From assembly GCA_020205615.1 (NCBI GenBank), contig CM035151.1, positions 46,677,409 to 46,741,408 on the forward strand: a stretch of 64,000 nt of DNA, written 5' to 3'. The translations under genes were made by a program, and so were the position numbers. This stretch comes from Panax quinquefolius (lineage: Eukaryota; Streptophyta; Magnoliopsida; Apiales; Araliaceae). Shown in pieces: positions 20,671-61,055 of this stretch; position 1 is the first letter of the stretch, and every line of letters begins with the position of its first letter. Under the pieces are notes generated by a model. That model was not told the origin of the DNA, searched no databases, and was given only the letters and a program-made list of their open reading frames with translations.

Positions 20671-20675
<5 letters not shown>

Positions 20676-20724: not shown

Positions 20725-20726
<2 letters not shown>

Positions 20727-23626: not shown

Positions 23627-23636
23627 CTATATATAG
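23627..23636 (-). promoter_or_regulatory. TATA-like box of D LTR
   Basis: CTATATATAG in both directions, downstream (minus) of the telobox cluster and next to a CT-rich CTCTCTC tract. The related F LTR has a similar TATATAG at 47635-47643 at the equivalent place. Confidence 0.5.
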
Positions 23637-25042: not shown

Positions 25043-25062
25043 TTCACCTCCCTTATAAAGAT
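25043..25062 (-). other. polypurine tract of D, first unit
   Basis: The minus strand reads TATAAGGGAGGTGAA just before the LTR start TGTAATAACCC at 25042. The second unit has the same tract at 31971-31990. Confidence 0.7.
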
Positions 25063-25264
25063 TTAGTCCCAGGAATTACCGTTTTAAAACCTATACATAT
25101 ACCGGTACATAGCATACACAATCATTGCAAGTAGATCTCGATCCTAATTTGATCGAACTGATCTTTAACTATTCACATAAAGCTTGTCTTTTTTGATTAA
25201 GCGGAAATTTGATTCCTAAAAGAACTCAAATTCCTCCTTCAAAATATCTTTATAAAATAATTTA

Positions 25265-26037
25265 CTATATATAGAAAATAATATAAGAAAATAAAATTTG
25301 TTTGAGTAATACAGAGTTGCATCCCCATTTGCTCTGGTTTCTTGAAGCAGTCGTGTTGAAGACTCCTTCGGTTGGTTTTTTTGGTTCATTTGTAGAAGTC
25401 GATCCCGCTATCGTCAATGTCTTACTGTCTTTCCTCGTATTTGCATTCTTTGCCTCCCTTCTCTTCCTTGGACAGTCTTTCGCCTTATGCTCCATTGATG
25501 CACAAATAAAACACCCACTATAAATTATTGGATTGGGGCAGTTAGGAGAGATATGTCCCTCCTGCCCACACTTGTAGCACACATTATTTCCTTTTAAACA
25601 CTCTCCCGAATGATTCTTTCCACAATTTCTACAACGCACAACTTGTTTCTTTCCACCTTCTGGCCTATTTTCCGTAATCCCAACCTTATCTCCTTTCCTC
25701 TTTCCAGTTCTACTACCACTACTCCCATCTCTCGGCTTTAACTTGAGTTGTCTCCCACAAAAATTCACCCCTCCTTTCGTTGTATAGGTGGCAAAAAGTT
25801 GTATCTTTGCCCTCCATTACCCGAAGCTATCACAACAACTTCTTCTGAGGTTAGTTGATCCTCTAAATCCTGGTGGTTCGATTGTCTTGAAGTCTTGAAG
25901 TTTCTCGATCGATTGCTGGTGATTTCCATGTTGGTAATCCATTCTGCATAGCTCGAGCATCTATATTCATCAAATTCTGTATCAGGTCTGGTTGTCCTCC
26001 AGCTTTGTTGACAAGTTCTTTTGTCCTTTGGTTTCAT
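25265..26037 (-). pseudogene. D unit 1: truncated Gag with three zinc knuckles
   Basis: The frame 25265-25768 has a basic linker (RTGKRKGDKVG) and three knuckles: CRNCGKNHSGEC (short form), CYKCGQEGHISPNC and CFICASMEHKAKDC, then a KRREAKN basic stretch. It stops 223 bp before the LTR. The frame 25765-26037 (MKPKDKRTCQQ...) supplies a short N-terminal part in another frame. The capsid domain of a normal gypsy Gag (about 200 residues) is missing, as are protease and all of pol. The knuckles could still bind RNA if the frame is read. The second unit carries a poorer copy at 32.3-33.0 kb. The 4-bp overlap of the two frames marks a frameshift or an artefact. Confidence 0.75.
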
Positions 26038-26818
26038 TTTCGTTTTGGCGGCATTATCTGAGTAAATAAATCATGTTCATCTAACTAATTCATAGTACTT
26101 TATAACATAGCACATACTGCTTTAAACATTCGATATCCCTTTGTGACATAAAAGTCGGGAATCACTGCCAACACTTATACAAAAGTTAAGAATATTACAT
26201 TACACATCATAGAGCATACATATTCTATTAATACTAATACTACTTATTTCTTACACATTCACTAATGATCATTTGCTTAATATTCTATATATTCTCATTA
26301 TCCTCAATAATCCATTTACACTTAAATATACCTAGTTCGTCAAACTTACCACACATTATGAGTTTAAGAACTAACCACAAACATATGAGTTTAAGAACTT
26401 GACATTGCCCACATATTCTTTAACTATACTTTACCTATTAGACATATTATCGCCTCTGGGTCTGGTACTACACTTTTCAAACCAACCACCTCATTGAGGT
26501 AGCTTTCAATGTGAGCCTCTATTTCAGCTATTGGCTTTGATATTGGCTCGGTTATGAAGGTTGACTTCTTCTTCTACGATTTGAGGTATCCTAATCCTTT
26601 CTATCGATCATCTACCCACATAGTTTATCTAGACTAGCATATAATATATACAAATGACAAATAATAGTTTTATATAAGTTATCTTTTATTTTGTTTAACG
26701 ATGAATTTATTCAATTCATCTCTCTTTTTAAACTCTATATGAGTTATTTATATTTTCAACGTTTCCCTCAATTCTAAAGTTATAGCCTAAGGTCTAACCC
26801 ACCTAAGGTTTTAACCTA
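26038..26818 (-). other. D unit 1: non-coding leader between primer site and gag
   Basis: About 780 bp with no recognised coding. It shares motifs such as TATGAGTTTAAGAACTT and TCATTTGCTTA (plus strand) with F's internal region at 50.84-51.07 kb, which supports kinship of D and F. Confidence 0.6.
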
Positions 26819-26830
26819 GCTACGATACCA
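26819..26830 (-). other. primer-binding site of D unit 1 (altered)
   Basis: The minus strand reads TGGTATCGTAGC, where unit 2 has the consensus TGGTATCAGAGC at 33766-33777. The CAG-to-CG-type change fits the error pattern reported in the findings. Confidence 0.75.
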
Positions 26831-26833
26831 TGA

Positions 26834-27638
26834 TGTGGCGCCCCCAAATTGGTACTTGAAACCCGAACTCGGTGCTTCACGATACCATTTCTATGGCGGA
26901 ATAATACTAATAATAATAACAATAATATAAATAACAAACTTAGTTTACATATATGAGTCTAATCCAAGTATGTAACCTTTACTATAATTCTTTACATGAT
27001 AGATAATATATATCATTGCTTTATACTATAACTACTTTACAAAGATACCATTACACATATTGATTTGCTTTCCTTTTCACTTGTTCTTATGCGAACCTTG
27101 AGTTGATCACGCTTAGTTGAAAACATTTAAATTTAAGCAAGGATGAGCATTTGAGTGCCAATGAGTAATAACAATTAGAAATATAATTAAAGTTGAAAGA
27201 AATAAATGTTTTCTTTGTACATCACTTCTACAATGAATTTATAGTTGTGAAGTAAAGCTGAGCAAATAATAATAACATAACAATTTATCTCAAATTTTTG
27301 AAACTACGTATTGACTATATATATAGGTATTAGTCATGATTATGAACATTATTTTTTAGTTTTTCGATAAGGTTTAGCGAGAACTTCATCATGGCAAACC
27401 GTCATAACTTACGAAACACGAGGGTGATCGCTTGATGTGCCTGTGTTGATCAATACTTACATTGCTAAAACGATATTATCGTTCATCCTTTATCCTTGAA
27501 GCGCATAAAAATTTTCCGTGATTGGGATGTTCATACTTAGATGGAATCGAACCAAAACAATTTGATTGGATCAAAAAGGTTTTATCTTATTCAACGATAT
27601 TTTTGAATTTGTGTCTAGGTGGATCAAATAGCTTAGGC

Positions 27639-27683
<45 letters not shown>

Positions 27684-30600
27684 CATGTGATTAAATCTGA
27701 TGATTATCCAGTGGGGACACTTGTATAACCATATTTAGAAATTAATGAGCAGAAATATATATATCGAATTACCATATACTAACATGTTGATAAACAATGA
27801 TCGGATATAGAATATATCACAATAGGGTTAATAATATAGCATAATAATAATATAATTACGAAACTTCTTACTCGTGTCCATTTCGTAAAGGAAATGCGAA
27901 AGGTAAGATACTTGCACGATCTTGGCGCTTACAGTTAAGTAACTTAGTTCTATCTTTATATAACACCTATCATTAATAAGATCATTTGATCGATTAGAAT
28001 AACATATTATATAACACATGCTTTGCTTATTGCGATTGACACATAATCTAATCACATTGTCGTATATTTTATGACCATTGAATCACAAATAAACACATAT
28101 CTAATCAAATTATCTAAGTCAGGATCAATTTTCGAAAAATATGCCGATTGTACCAAGCGGCTTTATCGGTAATTATCGAGTCTAAGACTACTATCACGTA
28201 AGTTCGATATCTGTAAGTATTGGTCGTATTATTTTTAAATGACTTATAATATTTTTAAACATTTATTATAATTTATCATGAATTTTCAAACACAGGAATC
28301 ATTATTAAATGATTTAAATATTAAACAATTCTATTATCATTAATATTTAATTAATATTAAACTATTAATGAAATCATTTCTAAAATGTTAAAGTTATTTA
28401 TAATAACTTAAAATACTTTTAAAGTATTAATATTACCATTAAATGATTTTTAAAACATTTAAAATCATTTTTAAATAATTATCATTAATATATAAATATT
28501 AATGTACTATTTATCAAAATATTAAAAGTCTTTAATCATTACTTAAAATATTTTTAATTCATTTATATTCTTTTAAATGATTTTTAAATTAATAAAACCA
28601 TTTATAAACTATTTATTTAATATAATTATTAAATAAATTTAATATCATTAATAATAAATTAATAATCATTAATATTAAATTATTAATGAAATTATCCTTT
28701 AAATATTAAAAGTTATATTTTATAACTTAAAATATCTTTAAACACTTTATTTTCATTTAAAATGATTATTATAATATTAAAATCATTTTTAAACTAAATT
28801 ATTTAATATAATTATTAAATAACTTTAATATCATTAATAATAATTAATTAATGAAATTTACCTTTAAATATTAAAAGTTATATTTTATAACTTAAAATAT
28901 TTTAAATACCTTATTATTATTTAAAATGATTTTAATATAATAAAATCATTTTTAATTAATTTATTTAATTCATTTAGTAAATAACTTAATTATCATTAAT
29001 ATTAATTTATTAATGAAATTTATCACAAAATATTAAAAGTCATTAAAAATAACTTAAAATATTTTCTTATATCATAATATAATTTTAAATGATTTTTCAA
29101 ATATTAAAATCATTTTTAACTAATTTATTTAATATTATAATTAAATAAATTAAATACTTTAATATTCAAAAATATTAAATATTTATGAAATATATTTAAA
29201 ATAATTAAAAACTAATTTTTGGAATTTAAAATAATTTTTAATAATTTATTTGGTATTTTAATAATTAAAAACTATTTTTTCTATTTATTTAATTAAATTA
29301 ATTAATTTTTTGGAAAATAAATTATTATTTATCGCTAAAGACCACTATAGTGATAGTAAGCAATATCGCTATAGGTGTTCTTCATGTTCTTCATACAAAC
29401 CCAGAATATTCTTGGGTTAACGAGTTCTTTAGGATTGATTGAAAGCGTAATTCTTAATTCTAGCTCGCGTTTACGGGAATGTTGTTAGTCGAGATATTGT
29501 AGTACAAATTCAACACTACTGAGATCGACAACAAAAATGATCATACAACCACATGTCTGAGAGATCGAGCCGTGAAAATGTTGTTGGGAATTTGTTCTTC
29601 ATTTTACGGGTTACCCAGAAATGAAGAATAGATCATAGTGATACTTTGAGCCTCCACTACATATTTAATCGTCTAATGTTTTGTGATCTAACGATTTTAG
29701 GTTATGTAGCCGACATGTAACTAAATAGATCTATCACAAAATATTACAAAAACAACAACAAATCTAGCGGATACCAACCCGGTCAAACCATGTCGAAAAA
29801 GCGTTCTTGAACTTTACGGAAATTCCGAAAATGCATTTCATGTCTCATCTGACTACTTTGACCATCGATTTCCTTCATTATCTTGTTTATATAAGCAATC
29901 TAAAGCATACATATATAGTACACATACTACAACACAATCACGATACAACTAACAACATCAAAACATCATACAAAGCGCAAGATCTAGCCTCGGAAAAATC
30001 TTGTCGAGACACGGTTAAAGATTACAGGTTACCCGAAATCACGAGTCAAGCGTCGGTCGGCGTGACTTTGACCAAATATAACTTCAATCCATACATTATT
30101 TGGTCACGATTCTTTTTGCATATCAAAGACCACATACCATACTACTGATACAAGGCTTTAAACTACTAAAACACATTTCGGAGTAACGATTAAAGAGGCG
30201 ACATTCGTTTGTCGGACATCAAAACAAAATTTTCAGATTTTTCAAATCTTCAAATCGAGCCTCTAGATGTTATGGATCTAACATCTAGCAACCCGAATCA
30301 TCATTAGACACTATAATAAACATATTTAACACAAAAACATAACATCTAACACATAATTTATGGGGATGAATTTTTTGGTAGGGTTTATACCTTCTTGAAA
30401 AATTTTGATTCATTGATTACGAGTTTGATGTGGTTGTTCGTGGATGATTGATCTTGGGAATTTGATTTTGTTTTATAATTTCGTGGGTTTTGGGTGAGAG
30501 AAAAGGTTTGGGTGTTTGGTACAAAAATGGCTAACAAAATAAACTTTTCTCTCTCTCGATCTATATTATAGAGCTTATATAGATGTATGTTCTTGATCTG

Positions 30601-31970
30601 AAGATGAGAATGTTGTCCATTTTAAGTCATGTGTAGTGGTTAGAGTTTGGTCACCAACTCTCCTATTAAGTCAAAACCTATTCTAGCAAAAAATAATTCA
30701 ATTAAGGGCAAACTAGTCTTTTGATAATTCATTTAAATGGAAAAATAGAAACTTGTCAAAATCGAAATACAAGGGTTTATTTTGGTCTTTGCTTGAAATT
30801 TTAAAGGCGATCAATAGGGTTTATAAAAAAAAAATTAGGGTTTAACCTAAGGTTTAAGCACAAAACATTAGTAGGAAAATTAGGGTTTTACAAAAATAAT
30901 AAAATTAAATAAAAAAATTAAATAAATTTTAGTTTTAAAATTTTTAAATTAGGGTTTCATAATTATGATTTAATTTTCTAATTACCTTTTTCTTAATATT
31001 AGCATTTAGATTATATAATTATCATTGATTTTGCAAATTTAGTAAATTAGGGTTTATACTTTTTGGTAATTAGGTTTTATAATTTCTAATTAGGGGTTTA
31101 ATTATAGAAATTAGAGTTTTTCTAAAATTAATATCTCAAAATGTTAATTTAATTTTAATAATTATTAAATAAAATCATATAACATGATTACATAATAATC
31201 TCGAACTCTAATTTGAGTTTCAAATTAGGGTTTAACACTTAAAATTAGGGTTTTTAATAATTTAGGGTTTTTAAAAATTATTTAGGGTTTTAGCACTTTA
31301 ATTAGGGTTTACTAATTATTAATACATTTATATATATACATAAATTATATAACACACTTATAAAACAATCTTGTACTCTAATTTGGATCTCAAATTAGGG
31401 TTTAACATTATTACTAGGGTTTAACCAAATAATACACCGTAATTGACCAACCATTATCACCATTATCAATATATACATCTGATACATATTTATAGCCTTG
31501 AAAAATCAAAATATAATTAATATTATATTAATATCCTCATTACCTTGACAATAATCCAAAATTAGGGTTTGGATTCCATATCTGATTTATTCTTCATATT
31601 TAACATTAATAATTAAGTTAAAATAATTAACTTAATAATCTATACTAAAATTCATATAATAAAATAATTATTATAATTATTCTAAAAATCATTTCATATA
31701 TTATTTAAATAATATATAATTATATTTTATGGAAAATAATTAATAAAAACATTTTATCTATAAAATTAATTATTATAAAAGAATATACTTTATAATAATC
31801 AATAATTTTAAAATAAAATTATTTGTAAATATTTATGTAATAAATATATTTTTATTTACCACATAAATACATATACACATTATCTTGTACAAATCCTCAT
31901 CCTTAAAATAAAAAAAAAATTATAGGCAAAATTTCTTATTTATTTATATAGAAAATATCGGGTTGTTACA
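26834..31970 (-). repeat. D LTR copy 2 (shared middle LTR)
   Basis: A 5137-bp LTR, matching copy 1 along its full length with scattered substitutions and small indels. Its telobox cluster is at 30830-31570, its hairpin array at 28200-29310 and its TA tract at 27640-27680. It serves both flanking internal regions, which is why the block is called an array. Confidence 0.88.
27640..27680. repeat. (TA)n microsatellite
   Basis: About 20 units inside D LTR copy 2. Confidence 0.95.
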
Positions 31971-33780
31971 TTCACCCTCCCTTATAAAGATTTCGTCCCC
32001 GGAATCACCGTTTTAAAAACCTATACATACACGGCACATAGTATACACAATCATTGCAAGTAGATCTCGATCCTAATTTGATCGAACTGATCTTTAACTA
32101 TTCACATAAAGCTTGTCTTTTTTGATTAAACGGAAATTTGATTCCTAAAAGAACTCAAATTCCTCCTTCAAAATATCTTTATAAAATAATTTACTATATA
32201 TAAGAAAATAAATTATAAGAAAATAAAATTTGTTCGAGTAATACCTGGAGTTGCATCCCCGGCTGCTACTGTTTCTTGAACGGTCATGTTGAAGACTCCT
32301 TCGGTTGGTTTTTTTGGTTCATTTTGTGAAGTCGATCCATTATATCGCCGATATCTTCCTGCATCTTTCCCACGTATTTGCATTCTTTGCCTTCCTTCTC
32401 TTCTTGCCGGTGGTCTTTAGCCTTATGCTCCTTTGATTCACAAATAAAACACCTTATAAATTATTGGATTGGGGCGGTTAGGAGAGATATCTCCTCACGC
32501 CTTACACTTGCTTTTTACATTATTTCCTTTTAAACACTCTCTAGAATGATTCTTTCCACAATTTCTACCATATGTGACTTGTTTCTTTCCACCTTCCGGC
32601 CTTTTTTTTAGTATTCCCAACATTATCTCCTTTCCTCTTTCCGGTTCTACTACCACTACTCCCTTCTTGGCTTTAACTTGATTTGTCTCCCACACAAAAA
32701 TTCACCCCTCCTTTCATTTGTATAGGTGGCAAAAATGTTGTCTTTTGCCCCTCAGTTACTAGCTATCCTGACCACTTCTCTGAGGTTAGATTGATCCTCT
32801 AAATCTTGGCGGTTTGATTGTCTTTAAGTCTTGAAGTTCTGCCGATCGATTGCTGGTGATTTCCATGGTTGGTAATCCATTCTGCGTAGCTTCGAGTGTC
32901 TATATTCATCAAATTACGCATCGAGGTGCAGTTGTCCTCGACTTTGTTGATGAGTTCTTTTGTCCTTTGGTTTCATTTTCGTCTTGGCAAATTATTATCG
33001 ATTAAATAAATCATGTTCATCTAACTAATTCATAGTACTTTATAGTATAAGCACATCTTTGCTTTAAACATTCGATATCTCTTTGTGACATAAAAGTCGG
33101 GGAATCGCTGCCACACACTTATCTGAAAGTTGAGAATCTTACATTACACATCATAGAGCATACATATTCTAGTAATACTAATACTACTTATTTCTTACAC
33201 ATTCACTAATGATCATTTGCTTAGTATTCTATATATTCCCATTATCCTCGATAATCCATTTCACACTTAAATATACCTAGTTAATTAAACTTACCACACA
33301 TTATGAGTTTAAGAACTCACCACAAACATATGAGTTTAAGAACTTGACATTGCCCACATATTCTTTAACTATACTTTACCTATTAGACATATTATCGCCT
33401 CTGGGTCTGGTACTACACTTTTAAAACCAACCACCTCATTGAGGTAGCTTTCAATGTGAGCCTCTATTTCAGCTATTGGCTTTGATATTGGCTCGGTCAT
33501 GAAGGTTGACTTCTTCTTTACGATCTGAGGGTATCCTAATCCTTTCTATCTGACATCTACCCACATAGTTTATCTAGACTAGCATATAGTATATACACAC
33601 AGCACATAATAGTTTTATATAAGTTATCTTTTATTTTGTTTTACGATGAATTTATTCAATTCATCTCCTTTTTAAACTCTATACGAGATATTTATATTTT
33701 CAACGTTTCCCTCAATTCTAAAGTTATAGCCTAAGGTCTAACCCACCTAAGGTTTTTAACCCTAAGCTCTGATACCATGA
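31971..33780 (-). other. D unit 2 internal region with decayed gag
   Basis: Homologous to 25043-26833. The zinc-knuckle frame survives only as 32495-32695 (GRNCGKNHSRECLKGNN), with the second and third knuckles degraded. The leader (33.0-33.76 kb) and primer site TGGTATCAGAGC (33766-33777) are well kept. Confidence 0.8.
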
Positions 33781-35908
33781 TGTGACGCCCCCAAATTCAG
33801 GTACTTGAAACCCAAACTCAGTGCTTCACGATACCATTTCTATGAGCGGAATAATATTAATAATAATAACAATAATATAAATAACAAACTTAGTTTACAT
33901 ATATCAGAGTCTAATCCCAAGTATGTAACCTTTACTATAATCTTGTGGGACTGGCGGTTAAAAGATTTACAGGTTGCAGAAATCACTTGGTCATCAGTCG
34001 GTCAATGAGCTTTGACCAAATATAACTTCAATCCATACATTATTTGGTCACGATTCTTTTTGCATATCAAAGACCACATACCATACTACAAGTACAATGC
34101 TTTAAACTACTAAAACACATTAGAATGTAAGCGATTAAAGAGGCGACATTCGTTTGTCGGACATCAAACAAAAATTTTCCAGATTTTCAAATCTTCAAAT
34201 CCGAGCCTCACAGATGTTATGGATCTAACATCTAGCAAACCGAATCATCATTAGACACTATAATAAACATATTCTAACACTCAAACATAACATCTAACAC
34301 ATAATTTATGGACAAATTTTTGGGAAGGTTTTATACCTTCTAAGAAGAAAATTTTGATTCATTGATTACGAGTTTGATGTGGTTTTTAATGAAAGGGTGA
34401 TCTTAGGGATTTGGTTTGTCTTATAATTTTGTGGGTTTGGGTGGAGAGAAAAGGTTTTGGTGTTTGGTATAAAATGGCTAACAAAAGTAAACTTTTTCTC
34501 TCAATCTATATGTAGAGCTTGCTAGATGCATGAATGGCTAGCACAAGAAAGTGAATGTTGTCCATTTTAAGTCGAGGTAGTGGTTGAGTTTGGTCACCAA
34601 CTCTCCCTATTAAGTCAAAACCTATTCTAGCCAAAATAATTCAATTAGGGCAAACTAGTCTTTTGATAATTCATTTAAATGGCAAAATAGAAACTTGTCA
34701 AAATCCGATAATACAAGAGGGGTATTTTGGTCTTTTTAAGCATGAAATTTTAAAGGCGATCTTGTAATCATGCAAACTGTTAGAGGTTTAACCCTAAGGT
34801 TTAGTACAAAACATTAGTAGGATTTAGCAATTAGGGTTTGTACAAAAATAATAAAATTAAATAAAAATTAAATAAATTTTAGTTTCTAAAATTTTTAAAT
34901 TAGGGTTTCATAATTATGATTAATTTTCTAATTACCTTTTGCAGTAACATTAGGGTTTAGATCATATAATTATCATTGACTTTGCTAATTTAGCAATTAG
35001 GGTTTATACTTTTGGTAATTAGGTTTTTATAATTTCTAATTAGGGTTACTAATTATAGAAATTAGGGTTTCTAAAAATTAATATCTCAAAATGTTAATTA
35101 GGGTTTACCTAATTATTCATAAAATCATATAACATCGTTACATAATAATCTCGAACTCATAATTGAGTTTTAAACTAGGGTTTAACACTTAAAATTAGGG
35201 TTTTTAATAATTTAGGGTTTTCTAAAAATTATTTAGGGTTTCTAGCACTTTAATTAGGGTTTACCTAATTAATACATTTAATACATGACATAAATTATAT
35301 AACACACTTATAAAACAATCTTGTACTCTAATTTGGATCTCAAATTAAGGTTTAACATTATTCTTAAGGTTTGGTCATAATAACACCGTAATTGACCAAC
35401 CATTATCAATCTGAATATACAAATGCATATTCATAGCCTTTGAAAAATCAAAATATAATTAATATTATATTAATATCCTCATACCTTGACAATAATCCAA
35501 AATTAGGGTTTGGATTCCATATCGATTATTCTTCATATTTAACCTTAATAATTAAGGTAAAATAATTAACTTAATAATCGTACTAAAATTCATATAATAA
35601 AATAAATATTATAATTATTCTAAAAATCACTTTATATATTATTTAAATAATATATGATTATATTTTATGGAAAATAATTAATAAAAACATTTCTATCTTA
35701 AAATTAATTATTATAAAATATACTTTATAATAATCAATTAATTCTAAAATAAATTTATTTGTAAATATTTATGTAATAAATATATTTTTATTTACCACAT
35801 AAATACATATACACATTATCTTGTATAAATCCTCATCCTTAAAAAATAAAAAAAATTTATCATAAAATTTCTTATTTATTTATATAGAAAATATCTAAGA
35901 GGTTATTA
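33781..35908 (-). repeat. D LTR copy 3 with about 3-kb internal deletion
   Basis: Matches the LTR end over 33781-33941 and then jumps to the homologue of copy 1 position about 23064, losing about 3.05 kb that includes the TA tract and the hairpin array. The junction is ACTATAAT|CTTGTGG, with 2-3 bases of shared sequence, typical of illegitimate recombination. It keeps the telobox cluster (34780-35510). The far end (GGTTATTA at 35901-35908) is short of the expected terminal CA. Confidence 0.8.
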
Positions 35909-41875: not shown

Positions 41876-44743
41876 TGTAACGCCCCGGAAAATCGAACCA
41901 TTTGTAAGTACGTTTATAATGAATAAAATAATATTATTTATTATTATTATGTGTTAGCAAGATGAATGTCGTTCTATAACCTAGAAGCGTCGGAACATCG
42001 TAGTATGTGAACCACGTGAGAGAATTAAAGTGTTTAAATTTCCAAGACTAAAATAAAAGCTTTCTGAGAAATTTTAATAAAATAGTATTCACTGTTTATC
42101 GCTCAGGAATTATTTTTGAACTTCCGAGAAATACGCAACGTTATAATATCAAAGCGAGATGGATTATGTAATAATAATCTAAGTATGGAAAACGCAATAT
42201 TTCGCATGCGGACTTAATTCAAGAATGTTATGTATTAATTTATAATGAATTAAACTTGTGGATTGTGTATGAAGTGGAAGTCCATAAGCTCTAAGGGGCA
42301 AGCCCAGGATGAACTAAGGTTTAGCCCAAGTGATTAATAATATGGAGCCCAAGCTAAATGAATGTAAGCCCACAAGAAATAGATTAGTTGATTACAACCA
42401 AGCCCAAGATTTGATCCATTAACTAAATAAGATCCATGGGGAAACCCATGTGTGAAGTAGTGGGCAAGAACTTTGTGTGATGGGCAAGAATGAAGAGTGA
42501 AGGCCAAGATTACTTAGGGATTAAGGAAGGAATAGTAAGGAGGTTAGTTAAGGAGGTGGATGGTCTTAATGACCATTATGCCCTAGCTTTGAAAGCTCTA
42601 TAAATAGAAAGCCCTTGAATTCATTTGTTGGTTGTTAGTTTTCATCCAATACACAAACAACTTATTTGTTAGAGCTAATAAGCACTTTGAAGCTTAACTT
42701 CCATTACTAGATTTTCCAAGAAGAAGAAGTACTAGTTCATCAAGGGTAAGGCTCTTCTCATAATTATATCTTCCATCTTTATCATAGTAGGGTGATAAGA
42801 GAAGTGTAACCTAATGAACTTATATGCTAAGAACATATGAGAACTGGTTAAGCAATGAACTTGAGCCGAATAAGTTATAAATAAGTAACTTGAACCTAAA
42901 CAAGTTATGAACTTATAGAATACACATATGAACTCGTCATATGATTAACTTAAGAAGTTTGTATGAATAATAAGATGTAAGCATGTAGCTTAAATGACTT
43001 AATTAAGAGTAAGTCATAAGGAAATGAAAGTCTTATATAATAGAAAATATTAAGTTATGAATTCATAAGAAATAAGCCATAACCTAATTTGAATATAAGT
43101 TGTTGTATCGTGTAAGTTGAGATGTCTAAATATTGAAATGAATCCATTTGGAATGATGAACAAATAGTTAATAATATAGTTTTGCCGGAATTCACACGAT
43201 TGGACGATAATCGTCGAATTCGTGAAATTCTCGAAATGGAAGTCGTATTTTGTGTTTGAACTCAGAAACATTGGTTTTTGATGGAGACAAGTCGTATTTG
43301 GCATTATAGAGTTGCGGGCTCAAAATGGCTCGGATTCCGACTTAGGACGAAGAAACGAGAGTTGAACGTTCACGAACGTTTATCGTTTTCGTTAAAAATG
43401 GACTAATAGGTGAATTTTTAGCAAACGAAGTCGAATAGATAAAATTTTTGCATGAACACATAGAGTATGTGATTTGTGAACCGTATGCTCTTGAACGAGC
43501 CAATTCGGACTTATAACGAAGAAGTTACGAGTCAGGGAATCTCAGAATTCAAAAATTTCGCAAAATTTTTCTGTGTACATAGTAGTCAGCCATGCGCGAC
43601 TCCAAGCTTAATGATTGGCGTCGCGGTGCCAAAGCAAGCCTCAGCCCCTAGAGACTCACGGTCGCAGAGCGACCTTTAACAAAGGGACTCGTGACTGCAA
43701 CAATGAAAGTCCCGGGTTTCTAATAGTAACATGTGATGTTACATGAACAAGACATGGCACCAGAAGTAATAGTTGGCCAGATCGCCATGATTTTATAACC
43801 TAGACAATAAGGAATGTTTATATGTTGAACATAAATAGTAATTGATGAACACTTAATTAAGGATCTTAATGAAACATTGTTAAGACTAAATTAAACCTTA
43901 AGTATGAACACTTAGGGTTAAGTTAAGTCAATTACATATGAACGTAAGAATGACCTAACGAAAAGCTGGAACCAATAATAACAAATCTAATATGTAATTA
44001 GATTGAGAAGAAGGGTAAGATTCTTTAGAAACCATGTATGTTTATTCATGACCTAATGTGTATGTGATGTTATCATCTACTGTAGAGACTTAAATACTTA
44101 AAGTGCACATGTTATAAACTGTAGCAGACGCTAAAGGCAAGTACTCTAACCCTTGTTCCAGTTTGATCTGGATAAGTCTTTGTGATTCATGTATTCTTCG
44201 CATGAATTAATATCTGATGAAGTCAACGCCAATGCTTTCGGCTAGACTTATGACATGTGGATTTATAATAATCTATCAAGTATTGACAATGATTTACCAA
44301 ACTAATATTGTTGTGGGTTTCATAAGGAGACTGAGTATGCTAAATTGTTTTGTCGTCAAACGACAGGCACGTGAGGTTGCCACAACTTAAACGTATACAC
44401 GTTTAATGAATGTAGTGTTGATCAATATAGATTACAATAGGCTGATCACCTAGATGTGCTCGTAAGCTATGCCGGACTTACGAACTTCGTGCCGGGATGT
44501 CCTTTTCAAAGTACTTATGAAATGCTCATGGTCTTGGACCGAGAATTGATGTTTTACTAAATATTATTGTTGTAAAACGTTTTGAAGGAAAAGAAGTGCT
44601 ATTTTTAATTATCAATAGTACTTCGTAACTATTGTTCAGTTATTGAAGATATATGATTCCTATGTCTCAAGCATGTTATTTTCCTAGAATTGTTGTACTT
44701 GCTGAGCTAGTTAGGCTCACTCTTGCTTGAACCATACGAATGC
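41876..44743 (+). repeat. 3' LTR of element E, cut by element F
   Basis: At least 2868 bp, from TGTAACGCCCCGGAAAATCG to the F insertion. It has TATA CTATAAATAG at 42598-42607, followed by AAAGCCC. No coding frame is credible. The conserved ACTTGCTGAGCTAGTTAGGC at 44698-44717 marks the late LTR. The remaining terminal part would lie beyond F and is not seen before or after the assembly gap. Confidence 0.8.
42598..42607 (+). promoter_or_regulatory. TATA box of the E LTR
   Basis: CTATAAATAG, the same core as in A/C/H LTRs, located about 720 bp from the LTR start. Confidence 0.65.
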
Positions 44744-47700
44744 TGTGAGGGCCCCGAATCCGAGGTCCCGAATCACCGTGGATCCGGTTCGATCATTCTA
44801 TCACTTTTACTATATTTGTAGAAGATATAAACATAAATTGTGTATACATTAAACTTACATACTTTTCCCTAAGGTCGAGTAACCTTAACTTAATCACAAT
44901 TCATAACTTAACTAACACATAACATTATTATCAAATTATACTATTACAAAACTAATCGCGCACATTCACTCTAAGCTGGACATGTCTTTAACATTTCCTT
45001 GTATCCGAAGCATTCGCCTTAATCTGCAATGTTTTATCAATGATATAGCAAGGGTGAGCATGAAAGTTGCCCAGCAAGTTTAAATTCAACAATATAACGA
45101 TATATCTTGATTGAAATGATTTGAATAATTGGCTGGCTATAATTCAACAATATAATTGTGAACTAGCAGGAACAAATTTATAACTGAACAAGTATTATAC
45201 ATGAACAAATATATCTCGAACCAACTAGTAATGAAGGTGATCGACCTTTCATACACGACTTATACATGCAATATGTACAGAGTACAATTCATGGCAACCA
45301 GCAATGATTAACCATAAGCTTATCCAAATAAAAAAACTCTTAGTAGAGTTAAGTAAAAACAAACTTGCATGAACCGTTGATTACCGCTACGCAATTTATA
45401 ACGCCTTATACGAAGACCTAATATTAGTAATATAGATCTCAAATATTAAAATAATATCATCACAATATAATCTTATATATATATATAAATATACAGAATA
45501 ACCTAAACACATAACCCTATCAGTCTATTCAGCACATAAAACTTAGCATCAAGTCAAACTATTTCAGTTTGACTTGAAACCGACACAAATTCTAACATCC
45601 CGACGGTATAGTCGGACTTTTATCGAGTTTAAGTTCAATTAAACTCTGTATAAATGCTTAACAATTATCTTAGATAATTTTAATAACAGCCAGAATATTT
45701 TTCCAAGTCTCATAATAATTTTTAAATAATTATTATCAATTATCGTGTATTTTCAATCATTAAAATCGTATTTAAATGAATTAAATACCACATAATTCTT
45801 TTATCATTAATATTTATTTATTATCAAATATTAATGAAATACATGTCATAATATTATAATATATTTATAATATATCAAAGTATTTTAATAACTTAAAATC
45901 ATAATTATATGATTTTTAAACAATTAAATTCATTATTCGATAATTGTTTTTAATATTAAAATATTAATATTTTCATGACAAAATATCAAAAGTTATATTT
46001 TATAACTTAAAATATTTTTATAACACTTAGATCATTTTATATGATTTATAAACCATTAATTCTATTTTTCTATAATTTATTTAATATATTTATTAAATAA
46101 ACTAATTATCATTAATATTAATTAATTAATGAAATTCATCCTAAAATATTAAAAGTCACTAAAATAACTTAAAATATTTTATTATACCATAATATTATTT
46201 TTTCATGATTTTTCATGTATTAAAATCATTTTTAAATCATTTATTTAATATTGTAATTAAATAAATTAAATACCATTTATATTCCAAAAATATTAAATAT
46301 TTATGAAATATACTCAAAATAATTAAAAACTATTTTTGATTTTAAAATAATTTTTACGAATTTAGTTAGTATTTTAATAATTAAAACCATTTTTATCTAT
46401 TTTAATTAATTTCAGAAAATAATTATAATAAAAATGTCGCTAAAAGGGGCCTATAGCTTACGTAATCTGTCATTATAGGTGTTCTTGAGCCTTCATATCG
46501 GCGCTAAAAGGTATTAGGTTTGACCGAAGGTAGATATGTCTTCATAAGGTTTTCTGGGCTGCTAATGTTGTTAATCATGTAGTATAAGTGTAATACTACA
46601 ACTAACATTTGATTTCATGACCAAACAACAATAAAACGGAGAGATCTAAGCTCTCAATCTTCATGTCGTAGAGGATCGGTGGGTTTTCGGTAACCCGTAA
46701 ACCAAAGCGATTCATGGTGCCTACTTTGAATCCTTATTTCATGCGTTCGGGTTTCTTTTTGCATGGATCAATAGTTCATAGTTGTAGTCGAGGTGTTGGG
46801 AATAACTCTAAAACAACACATCAATCTAACAACAACATATATAAGCAATAATGTCTAATAAAACACGGATCGTTTCAACCTTTCGGGTTTTAGGAAATGT
46901 TCTTTGAAGCGATTCGGTCCAAAGAGTTTAACCACTAATTTCTACGATTTGGCTATAGATCCGAAGTGATATAAAGGCATATATGTATATGTCGATGTCG
47001 ACCACAATAATAAAACAACAACCCGACTAAACAATAAAAAAATCGCAAGATCTAGAGCCTGCAAATCGTTGTCACGACGGTTTGCGGGTAAATCTAGGTT
47101 ACTAGAGCGATTTGGTCAATGCGGGTCAACGACCTTTGATCCTTCATAACGTACCAGATACACGTGATCTGAGCTTGATTCAAGATTCAGATCAAAGACC
47201 ATACAACACAGAACAAATCTATAACACAAAATACACCAAACATCAAACACACGCGTAGATTCTATTAAGTCCGATATACGATCATCGGACCATCTTTTCT
47301 GCTGATTTCAGATTTCTAAAAATGCTAGATTCGAGGACTTTAATGTTATAGATCTGGGATTTTACAACCTAGATCACTAAATAACACCCTATTACACATA
47401 TCTAGCCAATAAATTACAACATCAAACATAAGATCAAAGGATTTCTAGAATTAGTATTTATACCTCCTTTAAGGCTAAAATCTTGAATCTGACTTTTGGA
47501 TCCTGATCTTGGAAAGCTAATAACTGATAATGGTTTTGTTTATCACTCCCTCTCACTCTAAGTTCCGAATTTCTAGAGAGAGAAAGGCTTTGGCAAGTAT
47601 GAGAAATAAAGTTGGTTTTCTCTCTCCCTTTAATCTATATAATTGCTTAAATGTAATGAAATGGCTGAGCTCTAGCTGCTGGATTGCTGTGAAATAAGTC

Positions 47701-48771
47701 ATAAGCTAGGGCTAGGGTAGTTCACCAACTCAAATAAGGCAACTCTTGCAAGTTATGTTCAATAATACAATAAAGGACACTTTGGTCATTTTGTATTTAA
47801 TTTAATGGCATTCTAGTAAATGGCCAAACCCTTAGGGTTTAGGGTTTGGATTTAGGGTTTAGAGTTTGGACCATTTTAGGGTTTAGGGTTTGAACATTTA
47901 GGATTTGCAATTTAATTTTTTAAAATTTCCAATTTAGGTTTTAAAAATAGAAAATTAATATTTTTAAATTATAATTAGAATTTCTAATTATATTAAAATT
48001 CATTAATTATACTTTAAATATTCTTTTGATTAGGATTAGTATTTCCTAATTAAAATTTCTAATTTAGCAATTAGGGTTAAAATCACGAATTAGGGTTTAT
48101 AACCCAAAAATTAGGGTTTCTAATATAAAAATAATTTTCTAAATTAGAAATTAGATTTTGTAATTAGATTAGGGTTTTCTAATTACTTAACTTTAAAATT
48201 AGAATTAATATATTCTAATTAACATTAAAAGTATTAAATTAACACTTGGATTTTTCCCCTATTAATAAATTAGGGTTTCAAATCCATAATTAGGGTTTTA
48301 AATTTGGAATTAGGGTTTTGTAACCAATTTGTTAAGATTAACCCTAATTAATCTTATAATTATTTACACTTACGCCATTAAGTTCCCGATTTAGGGTTTT
48401 ATGCACCAAATTGGTGTTTCGGATTCCCGAAACTAAAATTAGGATTTCCAGAACCGGACTCTAGGTTTCTTATTAATCGTTAGGGTTTTCTAACCGAACG
48501 TTGACGTTCTTAATATATTCTTAGGGTTTGCCACAGATATCGTTTATCTGGTCAACCCTTGACCCTTAACCACATACTGTACACATATACACAAAACATA
48601 AATGCTTATTCCCTTAATCCTGAATAATTCACTTAAATCCTTAACAGAATTTTGAAATCCTCAAAATTCCTTCTTAAAAATATCAAACGCATACACTAAT
48701 TTTCTATTTAGGTTCTAATTTTTAACATTGAATCAATTAATTAAAATTTTCAAAATTCTCGGGTTGTCACA
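44744..48771 (-). repeat. 3' LTR of F (4028 bp)
   Basis: Homologous to 51746-54868 plus 57302-57340. In the transcribed direction it has a telobox-rich U3 (48540-47830), TATA-like TATATAG (47643-47635), a repeat-rich leader with ACCCAGAAA-type cores (47.3-46.6 kb) and an AT-rich hairpin array (46420-45700). Differences from the 5' LTR are concentrated at CAG/CTG sites. Confidence 0.88.
47830..48540 (-). promoter_or_regulatory. telobox cluster in the U3 of F LTR
   Basis: A dozen or so TTAGGGTTT words, including telomere-like tandem pairs (TTAGGGTTTAGGGTTTGG near 47840 and 47880). It lies just upstream of the TATA-like box, the same position as in D. Confidence 0.65.
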
Positions 48772-48998
48772 TTCACCCCTTCTTCTAAAAATTTCGTCCC
48801 CGAAATTTACCTTACACCTTACACCATACTGCTTACACCATACATACACAGCATTAAATGCTACCCAATACACCACTCACAAGAGTAAAAATTTTCAAAT
48901 TTTGCTGAGGGGTTTTACAAACTATTGTCTGTCATTTTCGCAAAGGTTATAGGAAATTCATCCGCAAACCGTCATAACTTATAGACATAATGGGTAAT

Positions 48999-50177
48999 GG
49001 GAAAAGGGAAAAGAATCCAAAAAAAGCCCGACGATGTTTTGATGTCCCATTCAAGCACCCTAAACTAATTTTTTTTCTAAAAGTACCCTTAATGTTACAT
49101 TTTTGGGTCATCCGTGCCCCTACCGTTAACAAAAGACAAACGAGGTTAAAATGTGATGACGTGACATGCTTAAATATAAAATATATTCTAAATAAAATAA
49201 CATATATCATTTAATCAAAATAAAAAATACTAAAATTCAAAAAAAAAAGCATAACATATTTACATCATTTAATCAAAATAATAAAATTCAAATTATTTTG
49301 TTAACTAATCAAAACAACTAATTAAATAAAATAAGTTGTATAACATATTTACATCATTTAATCAAAATACTTAAATTACTAAAATCATAATACTAAATAA
49401 TATTTTTAAAATTCAAAACCTGGAGTATTATGATTATTTTAGTAATTTTTAATATTAATTTTAAAATCATATCAATTTAAAAATATTATGATGTAATTTG
49501 AATTTTTAATACATTTTTAAAATATTATTACATCATCAAATTATTTATATTATTTATAACATATATAGATTATGTATAGATTATTACATCATCAAATTTT
49601 ATATATTTTAAAAATATTATTTAGTATTATGATTTTAGTATTTTAATGATGTAATTTGAATTTTGTTGTTTTGATAAATTAACAAAATAATTTGAATTTT
49701 AGTATTTTAGTATTTTTTAATTTGATTTTTTTAGTATTTTATTTAAATTAGTATTTTAGTTTTTTTTTAAAATTAGTATTTGATGTAAATATGTTATGTT
49801 TTAAATTTTAGTATTTTGATTAAATGATGTAAATATGTTATACAACTTATTTTATTTAATTAGTTGTTTTGATTAGTTAACAAAATAATTTGAATTTTAT
49901 TATTTTGAATAAATGATGTAAATATGGTATGTTTTTTTTTATTTTGAATTTTAGTATTTTTTGTTTTGATTAAATGATATATATTGTTTTATTTAGAATA
50001 TATTTTATATTTAAGTCTGCCACGTCATCACATTTTAATCCCGTTTGTCTTTTGTTAACGGCAGGGGCACGGATGACCCAAAAATATAACGTTAAGGGTA
50101 CTTTTGGAAAAAAAATTAGTTTAGGGTGCAAGTGGGACATTGCGGTAAACATCAGGGGCTTTTTTTACCCTTTGCCC
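48999..50177. mobile_element. Mutator-like foldback MITE (1179 bp)
   Basis: Flanked by an exact 11-bp direct repeat TAATGGGTAAT (48988-48998 and 50178-50188). The ends are inverted: GGGAAAAGGG at the left, GGGCAAAGGG when the right end is reversed. Inversion extends through most of the element: AAACTAATTTTTTT.C (49061-) pairs with AAAAAATTAGTTTAGGG (right), and TAAGTTGTATAACATATTT (49332-) pairs with AAATATGTTATACAACTTA (49791-). The arms are about 580 bp around a centre near 49590. No transposase is present. Long inverted repeats with 9-11 bp duplications point to a non-autonomous Mutator-like element. Confidence 0.8.
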
Positions 50178-51732
50178 TAATGGGTAATTAATCCAGTATG
50201 TCCTGTACTTATTAAGTACTGCTGGTTGACTCTGTTTCTCGTCTCTGCCAAAGGCACAAAAATTCTACCTCAGTCTTATTGGATTCCGCACCAAAACAAT
50301 TTGGTTCGGGAAATTTCTTCAATGAACACTTAAAGTTTTAATAAACTTTAGTCTAGCTGAATCGAATAGCATAGACTCATATCAATAATTCAATTCAATC
50401 GAATTATTAAGGTGTAGCCAAACCCCGTTGGCACATTAAAATTTTTTAAAATATTTTCGAGAATGACATCATGATGTCGTATTGTATTAACAGTCTGTTT
50501 GAGGATGCCGTCATTGTATGACTTTGTCATAACACATCATACAATAGTGGAACAATGATTTTCAGATCGAATTCGCACTAAGTATTTCTGTATTTACAAC
50601 TCTATCAACTTTTTATCATCTCTGCACCAGGTTACATGGTACATGAGTGATAAATAAAATATATTTTGATATTTCAAATCGTTTGTGTCTAGCTGAAATA
50701 AGTAGCATAGACTATACTTTAAACTGTTTCAAAAATGATTACGAGTCTACATTTTTTTTAAAGCACATAGTGCGTATTTAGCTTGATGTCAAAATTTCAA
50801 AGTCTAGCATAGCTAGGAGTTTTGGAAAACTTAATTCTTCACTAATAATCATTTGCTTAAATAGTTTATCTATTCTTATTATCCTTAATACTCCATTTAC
50901 ACACAACTATACCCAGTTCATAAAACCACACTTATGAGTCCATAAATTGCCACAATCATATGAGTTTAAGAACTTTCCTAGTCTGACCTTTGGCGTCCGT
51001 TCGCTGAGGGGTTCATAAACATTTCATATAACTATGAATCAAGTATGTCACATAAGTATAAGTTTTAAGAACTTGTACTTAACCTTATATCCTCTACCTA
51101 TAACCTATCTATCTGTTATACACATGAGAAAGGAATCACCCTCTTAACATGTATATATCAAATAGCACAACACAAACATTTCAATGATTATCATTGTCAG
51201 AACTAAGTAGTTTTTACACTAAGTACAATTCCCGCCCACACAAGGAATCATACTGACTCGATTCTTGAGCATGAATCCTCAATTGAATCCCCACCTAACA
51301 CTAACACCCTTCTCAATACGAATTTCATTTAATCCGTATTCATAATCCTTTCCTGAATCAGTACCAATTCATAGTACAACTGTCACACATCAATCTTGCT
51401 GTAAACTGTTCAATCATTCGCTTGATCCTTCTTCATACTATAACCTTATCTAATCACGGGGTGATCTCATCGTATATGTTACGATTCATTTCTATGTCTT
51501 AATCATTTTATTTTACGATCTTCTATCACTGCACTTTTAGTCTTTTAGACTCGATCTATTCATCATTACTGTTCAACTTTATTATTAGAGTTAGGGAACT
51601 CTGTATCTTTATAACTCGCCGAGATTCGTCTTTGAATCTTACCTACCAACTAACTTTATGTGAGTTAGTACTTATCCTAATCACAGCGGTTATTAGTCTC
51701 AAGTATTCCTACCTAAGGTTCATAACCAACAA

Positions 51733-51743
51733 CTCTGATACCA
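51733..51743 (-). other. primer-binding site (initiator tRNA-Met) of F
   Basis: The minus strand reads TGGTATCAGAG, two bases after the LTR end at 51746. Confidence 0.85.
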
Positions 51744-54700
51744 ACTGTGAGGGCCCCGAATCCGAGGTCCCGAATCACCGCGGATCCGGTTCGATCATTC
51801 TATCACTTTTACTATATTTGCGGAAGATATAAACATAAATTGTTTATACATTAAACTTACATACTTTTCCCCAAGGTCGAGTAACCTTAACTTAATCACA
51901 ATTCGTAACTTAACTAAGACATAACATTATTATCAAACTATACTATTACAAAACTAATCGCGCACATTCACTCTAACCTGGACCTGTCTTTAACATTTCC
52001 TTGTATCCGAAGCATTCGTCTTAATCTGCAATGTTTTATCATGATATAGCAAGGGTGAGCATTAAAGTTTCCCAACAAGTTTAAATTCAACAATATAACG
52101 ATATATCATGATTGAAATGATTTGAATAATTGGCTGGCTATAATTCAACAATATAATTGTGAACTAGCAGGAATAAATTTATGACTGAACAAGTATTATA
52201 CATGAACAAATATATTTGAACCAACTGGTAATGAAGGTGATCAGCCTTTCATACCTGACTTATACATGCAATATGTACAGAGTACAATTCATGGCAACCA
52301 GCGATGATTAACCATAAGCTTATCCAAATAAAACAACTCTTAGTAGAGTTAACTAAAAACAAACTTGCCTGAACCGTTGATTACCGCTACGCAATTTATA
52401 ATGTTTTATCCGAAGACCTAATATTAGTAATATAGATCTCCAATATTAGAATAATATCATCACAATATAATCTTATTATATATATAAATATACAGAATAA
52501 CCTAAACACATAACCCTATCAGTCTATTCAGAACATAAAACTTAGCATTAAGTCAAACTATTTCAGTCTGACTTGAAATCGACACAAATTCTAACGTCTC
52601 AACGGTCTAGTCGGACTTTTATCGAGTTTAAGTTTAATTAAACTCTGTATAAATGCTTAACAATTATCTTAGATAATTTTAATAACAGCCAGAATATTTT
52701 TCCAAGTCTCATAATAATTTTTAAATAATTATTATCAATTATCGTGTATTTTCAATCATTAAAATCGTATTTAAATGAATTAAATACCACATAATTCTTT
52801 TATCATTAATATTTATTTATTATCAAATATTAATGAAATACATGTCATAATATTATAATATATTTATAATATATCAAAGTATTTTTAATAACTTAAAATC
52901 ATAATTATATGATTTTTAAACAATTAAATTCATTATTCGATAATTGTTTTTAATATTAAAATATTAATATTTTTATGACAAAATATCAAAAGTTATATTT
53001 TATAACTTAAAATATTTTTATAACACTTAGATCATTTTTATATGATTTATAAACCATTAATTCTATTTTTCTATAATTTATTTAATATATTTATTAAATA
53101 AACTAATTATCATTAATATTGATTAATTAATGAAATTCATCCTAAAATATTAAAAGTCTTTGAAAATAACTTAAAATATTTTATTATACCATAATATTAT
53201 TTTCATGATTTTTCATTTATTAAAATTATTTTTAAATCATTTATTTAATATTGTAATTAAATAAATTAAATACCATTTATATTCTAAAAATATTAAATAT
53301 TTATGAAATATACTCAAAATAATTAAAAACTATTTTTCAGATTTTAAAATAATTTTTCTGAATTTAGTTAGTATTTTTAATAATTAAAAACCATTTTTTA
53401 TCTATTTTTAATTAATTTCCAGAAAATAATTATAATAAAAATGTCGCTAAAGGGCCCTATAGCGACAGACCCGTCGCTATAGGTGTTCTTGAGCCTTCAT
53501 GTCAGTGCTAAAGGTATTAGGTTTGACCGAAGGTAGATATGTCTTCATAAGGTTTTCTGGGCTGCTAATGTTGTTAATCATGTAGTATAAGTGTAATACT
53601 ACAACTAACATTTGATTTCATGACCAAACAACAATAAAACGGAGAGATCTAAGCTCTCAATCTTCATGTCAGAGACTGGTCTGGGTTTTCTGGGTAACCC
53701 AGAAACCCAGGCAGTTCATGGTGCCTACTTTGAATCCTTATTTCATGCGTTCTGGGTTTCCTTTTTGTGATACAATAGTTCATAGTTGTAGTCGAGGTGT
53801 TAGGGAATAACTCTAAAACAACACATCAATCTAACAACAACATATATAAGCAATAATGTCCGGTCAAAGTAGTAGTCCGGACTGTTCTTGAACCTTTCTG
53901 GGTTTTTCAGAAATGTTCTTGAGCAGTTCGGTCAACGGTAGTTTGACCACTAATTTCTACGATTTGGCTATAGATCTGAGTGATATAAAGGCATATATGT
54001 ATAGCCTGTATGTCAGTCTACAATAATAAAACAACAACCTGACTAAACAATAAAAATACTGCAAGATCTAGAGCCTGCAAATCGTTGTCAGACGGTTTCT
54101 GGGTAAATCTGGGTTACCCAGAACAGTTGGTCAATGCGGGTCAACGACCTTTGATCCTTCATAACGTACCAGATACACGTGATCTGAGCTTGATTCAAGA
54201 TTCAGATCAAAGACCATACAACACAGAACAAATCTATAACACAAAATACACCAAACATCAAACACACGCAGATCTATTAAGTCTGACATATGACTGTCAG
54301 ACCATCTTTTCACAGATTTCCAGATTTCTAAAAATGCTAGATTCGAGGACTTTGATGTTATAGATGTGGGATTTTACAACCCAGATCACTAAAAAACACC
54401 CTATTACACATATCTAGCCAATAAATTACAGCATCAAACATAAGATCAAAGGATTTCTAGAATTAGTATTTATACCTCCTTTAAGGCTAAAATCTTGAAT
54501 CTGACTTTTGGATCCTGATCTTGGAAAGCTAATAACTGATAATGGTTTTGTTTATCACTCCCTCTCACTCTAAGTTCCGAATTTCTAAGAGAGAAAGGCT
54601 TTGGCAAGTATGAGAAATAAAGTTGGTTTTCTCTCTCCCTTTAATCTATATAATTGCTTACATGTAATGAAATGGCTGAGCTCTAGCTGCTGGATTGCTG

Positions 54701-56439
54701 TGAAATAAGTCATAAGCTAGGCTAGGGTAGTTCACCAACTCAAATATGGCAACTCTTGCAAGTTATGTTCAATAATACAACAAAGGGCACTTTGGTTATT
54801 TTGTATTTAATTTTAATGGCATTCTAGTAAATGGCCAAACAATTAGGGTTTAGGGTTTGGATTTAGGATTTAGTGTGACGCTCCCAAAATTATGTATACA
54901 TCACCCATCTTGGGTCGCCAGATACATGGTACTGAATTTAAATACTACTTACTAATACAACTGTCGTGTACAATACGACAAAACATAAACTGTGAGTTTG
55001 AATACAAGTATTATCTACTAGAGATTATACAAACTCAAAAGGAGTCCTCATTATAATTATTATCACACTATTTTACAGAATAGTGAGGACTACTAATGCT
55101 ATCCTCTGGACCATCACTCTGTTTCCCGACTCGTCCCAGCTATATTCTCATTTCCTGAAGAGAACAGTGAAAGAAAGGGTGAGCTCAACTAGCCCAGTAA
55201 GAAATATTATGACTAAGATAATGCAGAATAAATTATCATTAGTCTCCAACAATGTTAAACTAATAAAATATAATAGACATCAAGTTTAACTGCGACGGAA
55301 CAAGCAATCCATTAAAAGAGTCAAGTAGAAAATAAAATCTACTATCTTTTATGATTAAAAGGTTTTTCATCATTTATTGTATTTGAGACTCACTTAATAA
55401 ATATTCCACATCATCGAATCACCCTCGCACTACGCCGAGGATATTCTTTAGTATCACGACCACAATTATCCATGCACTATGGGCCAAGAATATTTGTGTA
55501 TTCATTAATGGTCATGATCATGCCAACAACTCGTCCATCAATGCACTACGGCCAACGAGGACTTTTTACCGCATCATTTGTAACATTACGGCCATGATTA
55601 TACCAAATAATCCACGGTCGTAATCATACCAAGTCCATCTATGCACTCTGTGCCACAGATGACTTTCAACATAATATAAACATGAGGATGATGACAATGA
55701 TATAAGAATTCAATAAAACAAGTTCAAGAATTAATTTGTCCAAGAACTACTAATGTCCAAATTGTCAACATCATACTGCTTTGTAGAGTAAAATTGAAGA
55801 ATGATCATAAGAATATTTCCATGAAAAGATACTGGATGAAGCGCAAATATCAAGGATATTCTACTAATTTCATGGAGTATAGAAGTCAAAACTTTAACCA
55901 ACCGAGTATAATAAAGAATGGAATAACAAAAGAAATCACCATGCATGCAGTGCTTGCATGTATGAGTTATTCCAATAGAATACTAAATAACGGAACGGTC
56001 AAAGCGAAATTAGATTGCAAGCTGAGGATGTTCCAACAGAATAATAATAAAGACGGAACCAGGTCCAACGTAAAAAACACATGCATGTGATATTCAATGT
56101 AATAATAAAGACGGAATCAGTCCCACAAAAGCCATGAATAGGATATTCTAATAGTAATAGTAAAAGCGAAATAATAGAAGAATGTCACCAAGTATAGGGT
56201 AAAAGCGTGAAACAAAGGTTATTCCAATAGAATAATAAGCAATGGAATAACAATGATTCTCTTCATGAATAAGAAAGAATAACACCCCTTACGAATACAA
56301 CAAATAATATTCCCTACCTTAAGAAGAAAATCTTGGATATATAAGTAGTCAAGTAGCGAGAATACTTTCTTCTTCTCTCTATAATTTATCTCTCTAGAGT
56401 TTTAGTGAATTCGTAAGAAAATAATGAATGAATGAGCTT

Positions 56440-61040: not shown

Positions 61041-61055
61041 TGGTATCGAAGCGAG
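61041..61055 (+). other. primer-binding site of element J (altered)
   Basis: TGGTATCGAAGCGAG, where the usual initiator tRNA-Met match is TGGTATCAGAGCC. The change is CAG to CGA, in line with the error pattern noted in the findings. Confidence 0.75.

Follow-up and report, generated by a model that had tools for sequence, protein, structure and literature searches.

We analysed a 64,000-nucleotide (nt) stretch of the Panax quinquefolius genome (the window; assembly GCA_020205615.1, contig CM035151.1, positions 46,677,409 to 46,741,408), which consists of plant retrotransposon DNA, and found that CAG and CTG words of one repeat copy often correspond in another to CG followed by A or T (CGW). 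The change is bound to its sequence context, runs in one direction between the two long terminal repeats (LTRs) of a minus-strand retrotransposon, element F, recurs elsewhere in the genome and co-occurs within copies. Most of the CAG to CGW differences are very probably a base-calling artefact linked to DNA methylation, and we are somewhat surer of the artefact itself than of its link to methylation; the methylation, the sequencing platform and the failure of polishing are parts of this reading that we infer.

CAG and CTG differences between the LTRs of element F

The two LTRs of F (Table 1) aligned at 94.0% identity, with 114 mismatches and 75 gap columns. F is oriented along the minus strand, and its primer-binding site TGGTATCAGAG (51733-51743) adjoins the right LTR, which is therefore the 5′ LTR. 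As the preliminary description had stated, this is the copy that carries the CAG and CTG words: 39 of its 70 CAG/CTG sites were disrupted in the left copy, and 5 of the 36 sites of the left copy were disrupted in the right one. The baseline disruption over all trinucleotides was 13.6% and 13.3% in the two directions. When the left copy served as the reference, the words most often disrupted were those containing CG (42-53%). Clusters of differences touched a right-copy CAG/CTG in 36 of 113 cases, with 9.9 ± 3.1 expected from 1000 circular shifts, and lay at a left-copy CG in 28 of 113 (7.4 expected); in the same circular-shift test CAA, CAT, CAC and TAG showed no excess in the F clusters. The excess and its direction support the earlier statement that the copies differ mainly at CAG/CTG, but the word 'mainly' was too strong, with 77 of the 113 clusters lying off right-copy CAG/CTG and 77 of the 189 differing columns lying inside complex CAG/CTG clusters (defined below). 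All the strings quoted in that description were present, three of them at other positions than those given: GACTGTCAGACC at 54292 (given as 54291), GATCATCGGACC at 47280 (given as 47287) and GTTACTAGAGCGAT at 47098 (given as 47097).

The disruption was concentrated in a patch at 53338-54313 of the right copy, where 31 of 39 CAG/CTG sites were affected vs 8 of 30 elsewhere (69 of the 70 sites were used in this count, the one nearest an end being omitted). The patch also contained A/T-run length differences. Taking the right copy as reference, the exact outcomes were CAGT to CGAT (five), CAGA to CGTA (five), CAGA to CGAA (three, some of which may be mere loss of the middle base ahead of A) and CAGA to CGA (two); none of the four occurred when the left LTR was the reference. 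The outcome depended on the following base, CAGT giving CGAT and CAGA giving CGTA. When 69 CAG sites of F were classed, 16 fell into an 'other' or mixed class and 25 were unchanged across eight bases (two of these 25 were kept in part).

Not every such difference needs an artefact, although the preliminary description had listed them as one: a CAG/CGG pair may reflect deamination of a CG in the right copy, and a change of CAG to TAG or CAA is what CHG deamination ordinarily produces. Since CAG against CGG, TAG or CAA can be deamination, single substitutions (simple differences) were separated from clusters with an indel or adjacent changes (complex differences). The complex clusters of F lay at CAG/CTG in 28 of 63 cases, with 6.5 expected and none of 1000 shifts as high; the reverse direction gave 2 of 63 (3.5 expected), and the simple differences gave 8 of 50 (3.5 expected). 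Ordinary decay, that is deamination at methylated CHG and CG together with random small indels and ambiguous alignment at clustered changes, would account for the CAG to TAG or CAA and the CAG/CGG pairs, and for the simple CAG/CTG changes that exceed expectation in a second repeat pair described below. However, CGT, CGA and loss of the middle base are not products of deamination, the complex enrichment at CAG/CTG had no counterpart at CAA, CAT or TAG, and an alignment-free contrast at the primer site (5,346 vs 8, see below) also opposes it, so that decay appears very unlikely as the source of the pattern.

Other repeat pairs and the primer-binding site

Inside the window, complex differences at CAG/CTG were also in excess in a 7-kb tandem duplication, in both directions (20 of 301, 9.2 expected, and 23 of 301, 10.5 expected). 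The pair at 13.5/18.1 kb showed no complex excess (7 of 90, 9.7 expected, and 11 of 90, 12.1 expected), while its simple changes at CAG/CTG were above expectation (8 of 80 vs 3.6 and 8 of 80 vs 4.6), and the pair at 3/10 kb showed no significant complex excess (3 of 30, 2.4 expected, and 5 of 30, 2.8 expected). On these counts, therefore, F and the tandem duplication were affected, and the pairs at 13.5/18.1 kb and 3/10 kb were without significant excess. The tandem pair was rich in small indels, with 287 gap events to 388 mismatches; the unaffected pair at 13.5/18.1 kb had 43 and 274, respectively. With a partial third copy at 34-36 kb as the reference and all clusters pooled, 6 of 119 (2.1 expected) and 7 of 117 (2.3 expected) lay at CAG/CTG, and in reverse 2 of 119 (1.0) and 4 of 117 (1.6). 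The pair at 2.5/7.2 kb, which had just 11 mismatches, was too short for judgement. Scarcity of CAG was tried as a proof of artefact and rejected: the observed/expected ratio was 0.71 over the window, yet 0.64 at 13.5-19.8 kb, and because this stretch, which holds the unaffected pair, is equally CAG-poor, scarcity is not diagnostic.

As an outside sample we took ten places on the contig of the window, each spanning about 16 kb around a primer site. Self-comparison yielded 20 repeat matches of at least 500 bases and more than 85% identity; 9 overlapping or repeating ones were dropped, and 11 pairs from 8 of the 10 places were used (part of locus L027 enters two of them). These 11 pairs are repeat matches, each of which may or may not represent the two LTRs of a single element. 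They contained 222 complex hits at CAG/CTG, with 72.9 expected. Other motifs stood at 0.83 (CAA), 0.70 (CAT), 1.11 (CAC), 0.95 (CCA), 0.97 (GAG), 0.91 (AAG), 0.78 (TAG), 1.83 (GCA) and 2.38 (CCG) times expectation; CCG is a CHG and itself a CG site, and GCA may overlap GCAG. The middle base was lost or displaced in 48 of 426 CAG words and in 1,005 of 60,826 words overall. The most frequent exact change was CAG to CG (16 of 425), compared with TAG to TG (8 of 996) and GAG to GG (3 of 985).

The primer site of a retrotransposon has to match a transfer RNA (tRNA), and its true letters are therefore known. The changes that the preliminary description had placed at the primer sites at 26819 and 61041 were recovered by string match and are real features of the assembled sequence. 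Pattern counts over the whole assembly (3,565,155,480 bases, 821 contigs) found TGGTATC, two changed bases and AGCTTAG at 5,346 places, and the reversed-pattern control at 2. Among about 100 first matches listed, the changed site read CGA in two and CGT in the rest, the other seven possible pairs being absent. When the same letters AG were followed three bases on, where they come after G, only 8 double changes were found (reversed control, 3). The contrast between 5,346 and 8 requires no alignment. The intact site TGGTATCAGAGCNNNG, with any tail ending in G, was present at 21,789 places genome-wide.

The first 20 plus-strand matches listed were then taken as changed copies and set against 50 intact ones, all on the contig of the window and after removal of three duplicate loci. 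A CAG within 12 nt upstream of the site was present in 3 of 20 changed and 41 of 50 intact copies, CTGG downstream in 6 of 20 and 44 of 50, the full G run (TTAGGG) in 8 of 20 and 47 of 50, and CTAGGAGG in 6 of 20 and 48 of 50. The same altered letters recurred at a second CAG, where CGTAATGG was found in 9 of 20 changed and none of 50 intact copies, and CAGAATGG in 1 of 20 and 15 of 50. In the final 400 nt of the LTR, changed copies had a mean of 3.40 CAG plus CTG and intact ones a mean of 5.82. At the CAG preceding the site, the 20 changed copies carried 12 different four-base strings; 38 of the 50 intact copies had CAGT there. GCGCCA in place of GCGTCAC, 20 nt before the primer site, accompanied the CAG corruption (L069-L088).

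Coding regions, competing explanations and other features

Tandem unit 1 contains a gag-like frame that is open over 183 codons. In unit 2, 8 of the 9 CAG/CTG sites of this frame were disrupted and the frame broke 9 times, in 3 cases no more than 2 nt from one of the disrupted sites. The comparison suggests that at most of these sites the CAG reading is the correct one, but most of the breaks lay away from CAG/CTG. Two pol regions (16.9-18.4 kb and 38.7-39.9 kb) were compared with 112 homologs, of which those scoring at least 400 were used. No frame break backed by at least 5 homologs was found at 38.7-39.9 kb; several were present at 16.9-18.4 kb, including one at 17528 seen in 109 of 111 covering homologs. 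CG was not significantly enriched at changed compared with unchanged conserved columns of the two regions (2 of 16 vs 24 of 142; 5 of 15 vs 20 of 141, p 0.07), and three stop codons in one of them had no CG within 3 bases. The pol regions were given up as a standard of truth; the damage there was not clearly attributable to the CAG/CTG pattern. Part of the pseudogenisation in the window had been proposed to be artefactual; on the pol evidence, the effect of the artefact on it would be partial at best.

Several observations weigh against an artefact. In the gag interval, 6 of the 9 frame breaks lay at least 21 nt from a disrupted CAG/CTG, and 4 CAG/CTG sites of unit 2 were disrupted in unit 1. 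Within the final 400 nt of the LTR, changed copies did not have significantly more CG on average (10.70 vs 9.72, p 0.16), CAC plus GTG was also lower in them (8.15 vs 10.50), as was GC content, and they showed a change outside CHG, GCGTCAC being present in 1 of 20 changed and 28 of 50 intact copies and GCGCCA in 13 of 20 and none of 50. When columns were counted across LTR families, only 2 of 79 cells at 6 CAG sites showed a collapse; these counts are thin at CAG, and the copies had been picked for an intact primer site, save one copy from the window. On a quick tree of the copies, with the 60 nt next to the primer site excluded, one branch held 14 of the 20 changed copies and one intact copy, the other 6 lying elsewhere, and the nearest neighbour of 15 of the 20 changed copies was itself changed, as in a real subfamily; shared errors could mimic this.

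The clustering on the tree is what a real retrotransposon subfamily would produce, one whose members inherited the primer site TGGTATCGTAGC together with further CG variants, so that the copies would show ordinary subfamily differences. Against it, the changed primer-site copies did not form a single clade on the quick tree, which with the labels as observed required at least 7 state changes, and the changed copies diverged from one another precisely at the CAG ahead of the site. With each round, the primer site is copied afresh from the tRNA. The two LTRs of one element should be identical at insertion, and the F difference lies between two such LTRs. We consider a subfamily quite unlikely. 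An artefact of the CAG word itself, or of low-quality patches generally, without a link to methylation, would fit the loss of G-run bases and the changes at GCGTCAC in corrupted copies, and the A/T-run length differences in the F patch. It is improbable: neighbouring parts of the same LTR kept their CAG/CTG, and published work ties errors of this type to base modification within CAG/CTG motifs (PMC6591954, PMC10687267).

The features on which the analysis rests are collected in Table 1.

Table 1. Positions in the window of the LTRs, repeat units, primer-binding sites and coding frame discussed in the text
Feature	Position	Strand	Basis or remark
Control pair, copy 1	13537..15262	-	complex differences at CAG/CTG not in excess
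Control pair, copy 2	18086..19872	-	complex differences at CAG/CTG not in excess
Unchanged primer-binding site TGGTATCAGAGC	19830..19841	-	string match
Tandem duplication (7 kb), unit 1	19842..26988	-	CAG/CTG disrupted relative to unit 2, both directions
Gag-like open frame with zinc knuckle (PF00098), tandem unit 1	25265..25816	-	open reading frame and domain search
Primer-binding site reading TGGTATCGTAGC	26819..26830	-	string match; neighbouring copy at 33766 reads CAGAGC
Tandem duplication (7 kb), unit 2	26827..33941	-	self-comparison and pair tests
Unchanged primer-binding site TGGTATCAGAGC	33766..33777	-	string match
Left LTR of F (3′ LTR), corrupted copy	44743..47865	-	self-comparison and alignment
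Patch in left F LTR, 31 of 39 right-copy CAG/CTG disrupted, many to CG plus A/T	46338..47302		LTR alignment
Primer-binding site of F, TGGTATCAGAG, CAG intact	51733..51743	-	string match
Right LTR of F (5′ LTR), CAG/CTG-retaining copy	51745..54876	-	self-comparison and alignment; CAG observed/expected 1.47
Primer-binding site of element J reading TGGTATCGAAGC	61041..61052	+	string match

Element J is copia-like, with matches to PF14223 (just under the family cut-off) and PF22936. Seven homologs with a protease or its flank aligned to J with scores of at most 42. The protease stretch of J, whose active site the preliminary description had listed among the changed places, retains a CTG. On the minus strand, an open frame of 364 codons (6013-7107) matched no Pfam family above cut-off and had three relatives at 35-80% identity. 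Rfam gave no match at gathering scores within the window. Among the nearest proteins listed, those with a species name were from plants. TTTAGGG words resembling the plant telomere repeat were located near the outer end of the F LTRs (47838-47857 and 54849-54855). The right F LTR contains an inverted repeat, CCTATAGCGAC...GTCGCTATAGG (53456-53483), where the left copy has changes of the C-to-T type and a CAG change. An AT-rich, internally repetitive stretch is common to the F LTRs and the tandem units (21274-22350, 28230-29382, 45696-46425 and 52695-53490; about 67-76% identity), and parts of it are almost free of differences within each pair. A gap of exactly 100 N lies at 57341-57440; one more N run was present in 159 kb from elsewhere in the genome.

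Proposed origin and consequences

The preliminary description had proposed base-calling error at CHG-methylated sites. A systematic artefact specific to CAG/CTG is well supported, because one change, tied to its context, is seen again in different copies and, at a single functional site, is repeated thousands of times; the nanopore origin, the methylation and the basecaller are the part that we infer. The errors were tied to one short sequence context and were not random, as is characteristic of modification-mediated nanopore error, and identical wrong letters recurred at the same context in different places. We propose that plant retrotransposons here carry 5-methylcytosine in CAG/CTG (CHG), and that the pore current at methylated CHG would be unlike that expected by a model knowing 5-methylcytosine in CG only. 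Such a model may write CG and then another base (CGT, CGA), or omit the middle base. If all reads of a copy agreed, the error would be retained in the long-read consensus, and repeat copies without uniquely placeable reads would escape short-read correction, leaving corrupted copies or patches beside clean ones. One clean and one corrupted F LTR might result if reads of near-identical copies were used in correcting only one of them. A real change, by an undescribed germline process such as faulty repair at methylated CAG/CTG, would have to turn CAG into CGT or CGA in thousands of transposon copies, some of them hit at many sites at once; this we regard as extremely unlikely.

Related errors have been described in bacteria and plants. 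The Dcm motifs CCAGG/CCTGG accounted for about 70% of consensus errors of the then-current basecallers of Oxford Nanopore Technologies with default models, and Dcm errors also arose with a Chiron model whose training reads were human (PMC6591954). The likeness to these Enterobacteriaceae errors lies in 5-methylcytosine within CAG/CTG (here presumed), a model untrained on it and the persistence of consensus errors. The bacterial motif, however, has five bases, whereas here plant repeats are affected, with any neighbouring base and often with a regular CG plus A/T. In Listeria, nanopore errors occurred at GCAGC/GCTGC and GCTGG (PMC10687267); they share the CAG/CTG core, are systematic and survive standard polishing, but their motifs are specific to bacterial lineages, whereas here corruption varies among repeat copies. 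For plants, lower nanopore accuracy with general basecallers and improvement with species-specific models were reported (PMC9749173), a setting of native methylated DNA and a general model that our case would share in methylation and platform; the words CHG and CAG are absent from the main text of that paper, and the signature is not named there. No report of a CAG-to-CG signature in a plant assembly was found in the literature searched, most subscription papers lying outside its scope.

A simple string count of the changed versus the intact site could screen further plant assemblies. If the artefact is real, about one fifth of the primer sites of a large element group would be misread in this 3.57-Gb assembly (5,346 changed sites, counted with the tail TTAG, vs 21,789 intact ones, for which every tail with a final G was counted). 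LTR dating would be inflated: setting aside the complex CAG/CTG clusters lowered the F distance from 0.0369 to 0.0232. The artefact would also bias the frame breaks, CG content and primer-site annotation of repeats, and methylation analysis would be misled by false CG sites. Element ages and broken genes inferred from such copies may thus be partly wrong.

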